Assembly (NCBI RefSeq): GCF_013167955.1
Contig: NZ_BLWF01000004.1
Coordinates: forward strand, 292,587 to 356,586
DNA: 64,000 nucleotides
Direction: 5' to 3'
Source of the DNA: Thermanaeromonas sp. C210
GTDB lineage: Bacteria; Bacillota; DSM-521; Neomoorellales; Neomoorellaceae
Shown: in pieces, positions 36,421 to 40,430 of the stretch
Position numbering within the stretch: position 1 is the stretch's first letter
How the letters are laid out: the number at the start of each line of letters is the position of its first letter
Made by a program: the position numbers and the translations under genes
Notes under the pieces: model-generated
The model's database searches: none
What the model saw: the letters and a program-made list of their open reading frames with translations, nothing else
Told to the model about the DNA's origin: nothing

Positions 36421-37236
36421 CTAGCCTTCCCTCCTGCCTAGGACGGCGGCCATTCGCCCTGTCCGGCCCCCATCCCGGCGGTACGAGTAAAAAAGCTCCT
36501 GGTGACAGGCCGTACAAAGCCCGGCTACGGCTATTCGCTCCGGATGCAAACCCGCGTCGACCAGAGCAAGGCGGTTGGCTTCCCACAGATCCAGGTACCA
36601 GCTCCCTTCCCCACCCGGTCTTAACACCGCCTCTCCCCAGGGCAGCTGCTTTCTAAAGGCTTCTGCTACCTCGTCACCCACGCGGTAGCAGCAGGGCCCG
36701 ATGGCCGGGCCTATGACTGCCCGGCACTCGGCAGTCCGAACATTAAAGACTTCTGCCAGGCAATCTACTGCTGCCCCGGCCACCCGGCTCAACGTCCCTT
36801 TCCACCCGGCATGGATCAAGGCCATAGCCCTTCCGTCGGCGCTTACAACATAGACCGGTACACAGTCGGCAAATAAGGCTACCAGGGTGATGCCCGGCTC
36901 AGCGGTAACCAGAGCATCTACACCTGGAACACAAGTCTCCAGAGTATCCGCCCCTCTCCCCCTATCCTTCTTTCCGGCCACGGCCACACGGGATCCGTGG
37001 ACCTGCTCTCCCACTACCCAAGTTGCTAGAGGCAACCCTGTAGCCTCGGCGAAGAGGCGGCGGTTAGTCAACACAAGGTCGGGCTCATCACCGACATGGA
37101 AGCCCAGGTTAAGACTTCTGAAAACCCCCGGGCTTACTCCCCCTTGCCGGGTACTGAAGGCAGCCCTGACAGGAGCCTGCTCCTCCAAGGAGGAAAGGCG
37201 AAAATAGGGAACGGATCCTGGAACCAATTCTAACAC
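36421..37236 (-). CDS. pgeF: Purine nucleoside phosphorylase / laccase-domain protein (PgeF, YlmD)
   Basis: Member of the DUF152/LACC1 family: zinc-dependent purine nucleoside phosphorylase and adenosine deaminase activities are described, and E. coli YfiH/PgeF edits peptidoglycan precursors. The Zn ligands are visible in GEQVHGSRV (about 77-85), FADCVPVYV (about 122) and IHAGWKGTLSRV (about 140); AVIGPAIGPCCYRVGDEV follows near 170. The 271 residues are full length. GTG 37236 is used; the ribosome-binding site GGAGGG is rather far (about 13 nt). It starts the ylm run. Confidence 0.93.
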   Translation of the reverse strand: MLELVPGSVPYFRLSSLEEQAPVRAAFSTRQGGVSPGVFRSLNLGFHVGDEPDLVLTNRRLFAEATGLPLATWVVGEQVHGSRVAVAGKKDRGRGADTLETCVPGVDALVTAEPGITLVALFADCVPVYVVSADGRAMALIHAGWKGTLSRVAGAAVDCLAEVFNVRTAECRAVIGPAIGPCCYRVGDEVAEAFRKQLPWGEAVLRPGGEGSWYLDLWEANRLALVDAGLHPERIAVAGLCTACHQELFYSYRRDGGRTGRMAAVLGRREG

Positions 37237-37294
37237 CGTTGGGAAGATCCCTCCTAGGTATCGGTGGCCGGAGGCCGGCGCGGGAAGTTCTTCT

Positions 37295-37315
37295 GGGTGT
37301 TATTATATAACACCC
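37295..37315. promoter_or_regulatory. 21-bp perfect palindrome over a -10 element (operator candidate)
   Basis: GGGTGTTAT (37295-37303), the centre TAT and ATAACACCC (37307-37315) are a perfect inverted repeat. On the minus strand it contains TATAAT (37302-37307), the probable -10 of the pgeF cluster, 66 bp before its start; TTAACT at 37326-37331 is a possible -35 (18-bp spacer). A dimeric repressor bound here would block the promoter. It also lies upstream of capA. Confidence 0.55.
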
Positions 37316-37334
37316 CGGCCCATTTAGTTAAGAG

Positions 37335-37365
37335 AAAAGGCAGGAGTTTTTCCTGCCTGCCTTTT
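37335..37365. terminator. Bidirectional hairpin in the divergent pgeF-capA gap
   Basis: AAAGGCAGGA pairs with TCCTGCC, or alternatively AAAAGGCAG with CTGCCTTTT, around a T-rich loop, and the plus side ends in CCTTTTG. It lies between divergent genes, where a terminator is unexpected. It could stop antisense transcription or belong to the control region. Confidence 0.45.
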
Positions 37366-37417
37366 GTTGCTCCATGGCCTTTTTTGACGCCAATTTTCGC
37401 CTCGTTCAGGCCTCTCG

Positions 37418-37445
37418 TTGCCGTTTATGTGTTAAAATTAATAAT
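37418..37445 (+). promoter_or_regulatory. Possible sigma-A promoter of capA
   Basis: TTGCCG (37418-37423), a 16-bp spacer and AATAAT (37440-37445) precede the start at 37489 by about 43 bp. A small CCCC/GGGG hairpin follows near 37449-37463. The match is modest. Confidence 0.35.
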
Positions 37446-37488
37446 AATCCCCCTCCTCAGGGGAACCGATTTATGGGAGAGGTACTGG

Positions 37489-38610
37489 GTGAGACTAAGG
37501 ACCAAAAGAATTATATGGGCGCTGGCTCTTTTCCTCTTGGCCGGTCTCCTCTGGCGGCCATGGGCGGCCAACCGGGAAACGCCGCCCCTGCCGAGCGAAC
37601 CTCCATCCTCTACACCGCCGCCCCCGCCTGCCGAGCCTTTAACCCTGGCCGCCGTCGGAGACGTCATGTTGGCCCGCAAAGTGGACCGCCTCATGCAATC
37701 CCAGGGACTGGGTTACCCCCTGGCCGAGCTGGGACCCCTGCTGCGGTCAGCCGACCTCACCTTCGGGAATCTGGAGTCCCCCCTCTCCGATACCGGAAAG
37801 CCCATCCCGGGTAAAGGTATCTGGTTCCGCGCACGACCGGAGGCCCTTCAAGTCTTGCAACAGGGGGGCTTTGACATCCTCAACATCGCCAACAACCACA
37901 TCCTGGACTATGATACACCGGCCTTTCTCCAAACGATGGAACTGCTGGACAAAGCGGGTATACGTTACTTCGGTGGGGGACAAAACATCCAGGAGGCGCG
38001 CCGGCCGGTCCTCCTGGAAGAGAAGGGCATTCGTTTGGGCTTCCTCGGCTACAGCGACATGGCCGACATTTTCTGGAGCTACGATTATCCCCGGTCTTTT
38101 AAAGCCACCGCCGATCGCCCCGGCATCGCCCCCCTGGAGATAGAAGCTATGTGCCAGGACGTCGAGCTCCTCAAGGCCCAGACCGATATCGCCGTTGTCT
38201 CCCTCCACTGGGGCACCGAGTACCAGCGCCGCCCGTCGTCCGAGCAACGCCAAATAGCCCATCGCCTGGTGGAGGCCGGGGCCGATATAATTCTGGGCCA
38301 TCATCCCCACGTCTTCCAGGGAATTGAGGTCTATAAAGGAAGTATCATCCTTTACAGCCTGGGTAATTTCATTATGGACCAGAACTGGTCCCGGGAAACC
38401 TGCGAGGGATTGCTGGTGATGCTTACCCTGACCCAAGCCGGTTGGCAGCAGGCGGAAATCCTTCCCGTCCAAATCGTGGAGGAACAACCCCAACGAGCAA
38501 CAGGAACGCGCGCCGGGAAAATCCTGGCGGAGCTCCGGGATTTGAGCCGGGACTTAGACACCGCAGTAGAGATCAGCGGAAACCGAGCTATAGTCCACCA
38601 ACAGCCTTAA
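37489..38610 (+). CDS. CapA-family poly-gamma-glutamate-type metallophosphatase
   Basis: Exported or membrane-anchored calcineurin-like phosphoesterase of the PGA_cap family, related to CapA/PgsA but here without other capsule genes. GTG 37489 is chosen for GGAGAGG 6 nt upstream; it gives MRLRTKRIIWALALFLLAGL, a signal anchor (about 7-22). A Pro-rich linker (SEPPSSTPPPPP) follows, then the catalytic domain: LAAVGDVMLARKV, FGNLESPLS, NIANNHILDY, SLHWGTEYQ, ILGHHPHVFQG and YSLGNFIMD, all metal-binding motifs of the family. 373 residues. It is convergent with ymxH, 4 nt apart. Confidence 0.88.
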   Translation: MRLRTKRIIWALALFLLAGLLWRPWAANRETPPLPSEPPSSTPPPPPAEPLTLAAVGDVMLARKVDRLMQSQGLGYPLAELGPLLRSADLTFGNLESPLSDTGKPIPGKGIWFRARPEALQVLQQGGFDILNIANNHILDYDTPAFLQTMELLDKAGIRYFGGGQNIQEARRPVLLEEKGIRLGFLGYSDMADIFWSYDYPRSFKATADRPGIAPLEIEAMCQDVELLKAQTDIAVVSLHWGTEYQRRPSSEQRQIAHRLVEAGADIILGHHPHVFQGIEVYKGSIILYSLGNFIMDQNWSRETCEGLLVMLTLTQAGWQQAEILPVQIVEEQPQRATGTRAGKILAELRDLSRDLDTAVEISGNRAIVHQQP

Positions 38611-38614
38611 AGTG

Positions 38615-38879
38615 CTATTTCTTGTGCTGGGGAGCGACGAAGCTAGGATTTTCTACCAGAATAACGTCTACTCCGACTTTAACAACCTTTTCCCAGGGTA
38701 TAATCATATCCTCGTTATGTCCAAAAAAAAAACAAGAACTTCCCGGTCTGGCCGGGTAAGATCAAAGCTTTGATCCGTCCTTCTTCCACGTCGATCTCCA
38801 CGTCTTTGATGAGGCCAAGCCGGCGGCCGTCCACTACATTGATGACGTCCCGCAGGCGGAGCTCCGAAACCCTGACCAC
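38615..38879 (-). pseudogene. ymxH: YlmC/YmxH PRC-barrel sporulation protein, frameshifted at a T10 run
   Basis: GTG 38879 begins VVRVSELRLRDVINVVDGRR, the conserved YlmC/YmxH (PRC-barrel) start. The zero frame runs into ten T on the minus strand (38723-38732) and stops at 38715 after 54 residues. If one T is dropped, reading continues as GHNEDMIIPWEKVVKVGVDV and ends at TAG 38615, giving a normal protein of about 87 residues. So this is an authentic +1 indel, a sequencing error, or a gene decoded by polymerase slippage or frameshifting at the T-run. It follows sigG and spoIIR. Confidence 0.85.
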
Positions 38880-38940
38880 CCCCGCCACCCCCAAGTATTT
38901 ATATCCTTAGGCTTAACATCATTATATGCGGCGGGGGTGG
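38876..38940 (-). promoter_or_regulatory. 11-bp inverted repeat masking the ymxH start
   Basis: GGCGGGGGTGG and CCACCCCCGCC (38876-38886 and 38930-38940) are perfect complements 43 nt apart. The downstream arm holds the GTG start codon and part of the ribosome-binding region of ymxH. The loop contains a TATAAT (38921-38926). It may be an mRNA hairpin that hides the start in read-through transcripts, or a DNA operator around an internal promoter. Confidence 0.5.
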
Positions 38941-38953
38941 AGGAGTTTATCGG

Positions 38954-39604
38954 TCAGAAGGGGCTGGCGGCTAGGAGGGAGGCCAGGCGCTCTTTAGAAG
39001 CCTGCAGTACCTCTATAATCTTGAACCGCAGCTCTACCCGGCGCTCCTGGGGGTAGGATTCACCGGCAAGGGGTGCTACCACCGCCCGGGTTTCCCCGCC
39101 GTCCGCCACATCCACCAGGCACAGGGGAGGGAACAAGACACACCACCAGTTTTCCCCCTTCCCTTCGCCGATGATTAAGCGTACGGCCTCATAGCGGCCT
39201 TGGGGGAGGACGAGGGAGCCGTATGTTCGGGTAGGAAAGTCAAAGTCGCCCCACTGGGCTTTAACGGGATAAGGGCTCCCTTCGGCAGAAAGCTTTTCTT
39301 CGGCCGCCCGGGTCAAGGTGGCCAGATTTTGGGCCAGCCAGTGCCGGGCTTCCTCTACATCCCTCGCGTCCTTTAACTGCTTGCTCGCCTCCGCCAGGAC
39401 AACATTCCGGACCTCCATCTTCAACTGCTGGTCGCGGTCGGTATCACTGGGAGCGACTACGTGGAGCCGGATGAGATTGTCAGGGTTGTAGGCCGGTACC
39501 GCGGGAGAATCCGGAAGACTTCCCCGACCGGCAGCCAGGCCCGCAAGGACCAGTAATAATGCACCAATTCCGACAGCTATGCCGTAACGCCGATATGAGA
39601 ACAT
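38954..39604 (-). CDS. spoIIR: Stage II sporulation protein R
   Basis: Signal protein made in the forespore and secreted into the intermembrane space, where it activates SpoIIGA to process pro-sigma-E. The 216 residues start with a signal or anchor helix (about 8-27). The family hallmarks are LIRLHVVAPSDTDRDQQLK near 45 and NWWCVLFPPLCLVD near 152. It starts 11 nt after sigG, so it is probably co-transcribed from the sigma-F-like promoter at 40431-40460, which would give forespore expression. Confidence 0.95.
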   Translation of the reverse strand: MFSYRRYGIAVGIGALLLVLAGLAAGRGSLPDSPAVPAYNPDNLIRLHVVAPSDTDRDQQLKMEVRNVVLAEASKQLKDARDVEEARHWLAQNLATLTRAAEEKLSAEGSPYPVKAQWGDFDFPTRTYGSLVLPQGRYEAVRLIIGEGKGENWWCVLFPPLCLVDVADGGETRAVVAPLAGESYPQERRVELRFKIIEVLQASKERLASLLAASPF

Positions 39605-39615
39605 CTTGCCTCCTC

Positions 39616-40389
39616 CTACATGTACTTGCGCATGTGATTCAAAGCCGCTTTTTCCAGGCGGGAAACCTGGGCCTGAGAAATGCCTATCTCCTCGGCCACC
39701 TCCATCTGGGTCTTCCCTTCAAAGAAGCGCAGGGAAAGGATGAGCCTCTCCCTTTCATTGAGCTTGCCGAGGGCTTCCCGCACGGCAATGCTCTCCAACC
39801 AAGCACCGTCCTGGTTCTTTTCGTCTCCGATCTGGTCCATTACATAGATGGGATCGCCCCCATCATTATAAATGGGCTCAAAAAGAGAAACCGGCTCCTG
39901 GATGGCATCCAGGGCAAAGATTACCTCTTCCTGGGGCATATTGAGCTCCCGGGCTATCTCCGCCACCGAGGGCTCCCGGCCATACCGGCTTACCAGGGCA
40001 TCCCTCACCTGCAGGGCGCGGTAGGCCACGTCTCGCAGGGAGCGGCTGACCCTTATGGGATTATTATCCCGCAAGTAGCGCCGGATCTCTCCGATAATCA
40101 TGGGCACGGCGTAGGTGGAAAATTTAACATTTTGGGCCAGATCGAAATTATCTATGGCCTTCATAAGGCCAATGCAGCCCACTTGGAACAGATCATCCAC
40201 GAACTCTCCCCGGTTAGTGAAGCGCTGGATAACGCTCAAGACCAGCCTCAAATTGCCGCGGATAAGCTTCTCCCGGGCACTCTGATCGCCGGCCTGCATC
40301 GCCTGAAACAACTCGCGCATCTCTTCATTGCTCAGGAGGGGGAGCTTGGAGGTATTTACTCCGCAAATCTCCACTTTGTTGAGGGTCAC
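39616..40389 (-). CDS. sigG: RNA polymerase sigma-G (late forespore)
   Basis: Late forespore-specific sigma factor. GTG 40389 (MTLNKVEICGVNTSKLPLLS) has GGGAGG about 10 nt upstream and matches the SigG N-terminus (NKVEICGVxTSKLP). Region 2 reads RRFTNRGEFVDDLFQVGCIG-like (about 60-80) with KFSTYAVPMIIGEIRRYLRD, and the region 4 helix-turn-helix is QMEVAEEIGISQAQVSRLEK near the end. The 257-residue length is normal. It has its own promoter and is separated from sigE by a terminator. Confidence 0.96.
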   Translation of the reverse strand: MTLNKVEICGVNTSKLPLLSNEEMRELFQAMQAGDQSAREKLIRGNLRLVLSVIQRFTNRGEFVDDLFQVGCIGLMKAIDNFDLAQNVKFSTYAVPMIIGEIRRYLRDNNPIRVSRSLRDVAYRALQVRDALVSRYGREPSVAEIARELNMPQEEVIFALDAIQEPVSLFEPIYNDGGDPIYVMDQIGDEKNQDGAWLESIAVREALGKLNERERLILSLRFFEGKTQMEVAEEIGISQAQVSRLEKAALNHMRKYM

Positions 40390-40430
40390 CGGCGCAAAAC
40401 CTCCCATCCCCACTATTTGCCCGGTAATTT

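Follow-up and report, generated by a model that had tools for sequence, protein, structure and literature searches.

A frame-breaking run of ten T in ylmC of Thermanaeromonas sp. C210, most likely an ordinary one-base length variant

The ylmC locus and its broken frame

The window (the whole 64-kb stretch of DNA that was analysed) contains on its minus strand a YlmC/YmxH-family gene whose reading frame is broken at a run of ten T residues. The features of the locus are listed below.

36421..37236, minus strand: pgeF/ylmD, downstream neighbour in the ylm gene order (TIGR00726, PF02578)
38615..38879, minus strand: ylmC, YlmC/YmxH family, PRC-barrel, frame-broken (TIGR02888, PF05239; gene order as in the relatives G007 and G004)
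38715..38717, minus strand: TAA that ends frame 0 shortly after the run (sequence)
38723..38732, minus strand: T10 run (sequence; longest A/T run of the genome)
38736..38763, minus strand: predicted RNA hairpin of -12.1 kcal/mol with its core stem at 38742-38756; 3 nt separate its end from U10
38954..39604, minus strand: spoIIR, upstream neighbour of ylmC (TIGR02837)
39616..40413, minus strand: sigG, upstream neighbour (TIGR02850)

The gene is predicted to start with GTG at 38879; a longer version starting with TTG at 38894 is possible. On the minus strand, the run stands in the context GGGAAGTTCTTG-T10-GGACATAACGAGGATATG and amounts to three Phe codons with a surplus T. Frame 0 read across it gives ...GKFLFFFWT* and ends at the TAA, so both the T10 and the stop lie where the sequence-only reading had placed them. 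When the run is read as T9, translation continues as ...GKFLFFFGHNEDMIIPWEKVVKVGVDVILVENPSFVAPQHKK* to the end at 38615, and the frame is likewise restored by the addition of two T. The product of the T9 reading (87 aa) has 84% identity to the corresponding protein of G007, the nearest relative, and scores 90.8 bits against TIGR02888, versus 57.9 bits for the truncated form. Both values exceed the curated cut-off of 44.2 bits, which places both forms in the YlmC/YmxH family, and the PRC-barrel domain (PF05239) is matched by both. The earlier claim that removal of a single T restores a family protein is thus borne out. The third frame past the run reads DITRI*, with its stop shortly downstream; programmed -1 ribosomal frameshifting was rejected, since it would lead into this frame and not to the family C-terminus. 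With near-equal use of TTT and TTC (613 vs 586), three consecutive TTT codons in ylmC are unremarkable.

The sequence-only reading named the gene ymxH. Judged by gene order, it is ylmC: it lies in a spoIIGA-sigE-sigG-spoIIR-ylmC-ylmD cluster, and G007 and G004 have in common with it the order spoIIGA-sigE-sigG-spoIIR-ylmC-ylmD-hlyD-like-ylmE-sepF. The true ymxH is found elsewhere in the genome, intact, at G000:C4:108017-108358, with pnp, a YlxY/PdaB-like deacetylase gene, an M16 peptidase gene and dpaA as neighbours. These are the surroundings of ymxH in B. subtilis as well.

The gene resembles B. subtilis ylmC (TIGR02888 family) in family match and size and in its placement after sigG in the spoIIG-ylm order. 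It differs from it in the extra T that breaks the frame, in the presence of spoIIR between sigG and ylmC and in the separation of ylmC from ylmD by a convergent PGA_cap (PF09587) gene. This PGA_cap gene (37264-38610, plus strand), whose stop is a few bases from the ylmC end, has no match in the corresponding stretches of G007 and G004, where ylmC and ylmD are adjacent. In B. subtilis, sporulation is unaffected by single disruption of ylmC or ymxH, and in C. perfringens loss of ylmC leads to fewer spores (PMC9332280). Since the ymxH paralog is intact here, loss of ylmC would be tolerable.

Relatives, divergence and long runs in the genome

A protein search of the strain's own genome and 60 relatives, each species represented by one genome and none of the relatives belonging to the same genus, retrieved matches in 55 of the 61 genomes, and only in the strain's own genome was the best match split over two frames. 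One relative (G019) has a TAG within the matched stretch, which may be the natural end of the gene, and some of the weak matches in relatives may be to the paralog rather than to ylmC. In the 30 relatives read at the DNA level, no T run of nine or more and no such frame break were present at the site. The longest T run there was eight, and the codons were TTT/TTC mixtures or specified other residues. The peptide FLFFFG is common to near relatives; the unbroken T run is peculiar to the genome under study. Programmed slippage would be expected to keep both the run and the break in relatives, and 0 of the 30 carry at least nine T. A plain, intact gene without a long homopolymer is therefore what the relatives have, and this is the very observation that had been named beforehand as refuting the earlier interpretation. 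The genome-contig scan gave two loci, neither of them from a second strain of the same species.

Comparison with G007 revealed, at codon positions 1, 2 and 3, respectively, 9, 4 and 29 changes over the 48 codons that precede the run and 7, 0 and 20 over the 33 codons that follow it. Since the bias of divergence towards position 3 continues downstream, the break must be very recent, artefactual or bypassed; by this comparison, the part of ylmC beyond the break was maintained as protein-coding sequence up to the very recent past, if not to the present.

By composition, T9 is not rare: dinucleotide shuffles give an expectation of 0.71 per 64 kb. The whole 2.68 Mb genome contains only seven T9 matches, at six loci, from which it follows that long T runs are depleted. 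Counting A as well, runs of at least nine occur at six loci. Errors were sampled by pattern search and from stretches of the genome. At the loci fetched, a hexamer-based heuristic scored the frame on both sides of each run of at least eight, with visual inspection of doubtful cases. Some 20 coding runs of 8-9 bases, A9, G9 and C9 among them, leave the frame undisturbed. Two flagged G/C runs and several T8 cases turned out by eye to be gene starts or junctions and not breaks. Among the fetched runs of at least eight, just two break a frame, namely the T10 of ylmC and the T9 of a polysaccharide flippase gene.

When the window and 20 kb on each side were compared with relatives' ORFs, ylmC was the only sense-strand break in the about 78 kb covered; two-frame matches near 34.5, 40.2, 45.0 and 49.3 kb lie on the opposite strand or across gene ends and were judged to be shadows. 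A generally homopolymer-prone assembly was rejected on the strength of the in-frame coding runs of 8-9 bases. These argue against a general tendency of this kind but are still compatible with one wrong call at the longest T run.

The flippase T9 (G000:C3:525021-525029) breaks a gene at C3:524107-525620 that matches PF01943 over its first part and adjoins rfbD-, rfbA-, rfbC- and rfbB-like sugar genes. Its counterpart in G020 is 71% identical, intact and free of a long run. Alignment shows the flippase run to lack one T and the ylmC run to have one too many, and the flippase frame would be restored by adding one T or removing two.

Origin of the extra T

Overall, the locus most likely holds an ordinary one-base length variant of a redundant gene, which either arose recently in the DNA or is technical. 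To the first of these, a very recent and unselected replication slip in an otherwise ordinary ylmC of the sequenced strain or culture, we give a probability of roughly 0.5; this share and those expressed in words below are judgements, not computed values. In such a course of events, three Phe codons would happen to have become TTT TTT TTT in this lineage, giving T9; replication slippage would then have added one T very recently, leaving the sequenced strain or culture with an allele whose frame is broken; and the break would have been tolerated, without being selected, owing to the intact ymxH paralog. We infer that the T10 is present in the DNA and is recent, and that RNA polymerase slippage on U10 would still yield a portion of in-frame mRNA (U9 or U12). 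The sequence comparisons fit this: relatives have no run of at least nine T, the position-3 bias extends downstream, coding runs elsewhere are in frame and ymxH is intact. Since the ylmC and flippase runs are off by one in opposite directions, random slippage fits better than a one-sided platform bias. Against a recent slip stands the fact that an error in calling the longest T run of the genome would give an identical picture, and also that both breaks coincide with the longest T runs, the very places where technical errors would be expected.

A sequencing or assembly error, with a true run of T9 and an intact ylmC, is a serious competitor, which we hold at somewhat under even odds. The unbroken frames of relatives and the protein-level constraint up to the end of the gene are just what it predicts, and the longest A/T run in the assembly is where miscalls are most likely. 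It has to be set against the in-frame coding runs of 8-9 bases, whichever base they consist of, the lack of any other sense-strand break in the region compared and the opposite deviations of the two broken T runs.

Far less probable is lineage-specific recoding, according to which the T10 would be real and fixed and hairpin-assisted RNA polymerase slippage would set a low dose of full-length YlmC. The predicted hairpin and the U10 that follows it are laid out like an intrinsic terminator. The layout also resembles that of stem-loops reported beside the sites of slippage in IS1447 and Roseiflexus IS630 (PMC6211511, PMC5009743). The hairpin has z = -2.84 for a chosen stretch of 34 nt that was picked after being seen; in relatives, it is mostly weaker or placed differently, and pairing is partly imposed by coding. 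Post hoc choice and coding-imposed pairing leave the hairpin with modest weight. No RNA structure beyond chance was detected downstream of the run (z 0.66). Over 38736-38763 and at the same place in relatives, the sequence coding for the conserved peptide LPGxxGGKFLFFF tends to form a G+C-rich hairpin with U-rich sequence behind it, which amounts to a terminator-like signal within ylmC.

The premise that polymerase slips at A/T runs of nine or more, put forward in the sequence-only reading, is established (PMC1088944), and in E. coli, slippage of RNA polymerase at T8 led to deletion-type rescue of about 10% (PMC6260861). Leaky rescue of the T10 allele by such slippage would therefore be plausible, whereas selection for it finds no support. 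However, recoding needs a net -1 or +2, and genome-wide insertions are more frequent than deletions at homopolymers (PMC5574713); besides, both the run and the break lack conservation. In C. rodentium tssM (A11), Shigella mxiE and endosymbiont poly(A) genes, a long A/T run likewise precedes a premature stop and slippage-changed run length restores the frame (PMC4256274, PMC1088944, PMC5009743). Unlike these rescued genes, ylmC requires a net -1 or +2, shares its run with no relative and is known here from DNA alone. IS1447 comes from Clostridium thermocellum, a thermophilic Firmicute, and has an A9 behind an mRNA stem-loop, with slippage of about 16% in each direction (PMC6211511); it is a transposase gene whose arrangement is kept across the element family, whereas ylmC is a single unshared case. 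Should slippage rescue be true, a cellular sporulation gene would join the short list of bacterial genes so expressed.

Least likely of all is a selected phase-variation switch, in which reversible slippage of the DNA would turn the gene on and off, for although T9-T10 runs can change length often and a T9 breaks the frame of a flippase gene in this genome too, no relative has kept a long run, ylmC is redundant with ymxH and long T runs are depleted in the genome. In Neisseria-type phase variation of surface genes, run length sets the frame (PMC3786947, PMC5084427); ylmC, in contrast, is a housekeeping-like sporulation gene and was read in one genome only. Of the earlier interpretation, the frame break, the one-base repair and the list of candidate causes stand, while the gene name has to be changed and an on/off or dosage switch, selected or conserved, finds no support in relatives that are intact without a homopolymer or in a genome with an intact paralog. 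A lone over-long homopolymer should be called neither a switch nor a dead gene without recourse to relatives and reads.

Other long runs

Judged from the sequence, phase variation or slippage would be a better fit for the flippase gene than for ylmC. No homopolymer seen in the genome is longer than a C14/G14 run (positions 1501-1514 of locus L079; G000:C2:384415-384428), which has no clear coding frame on either side. Another T9 (locus L034, G000:C1, around 296484) lies within a spacer of a CRISPR-like array with a repeat similar to GTTTCCAGCCTACCTACGAGGGATTGAA.
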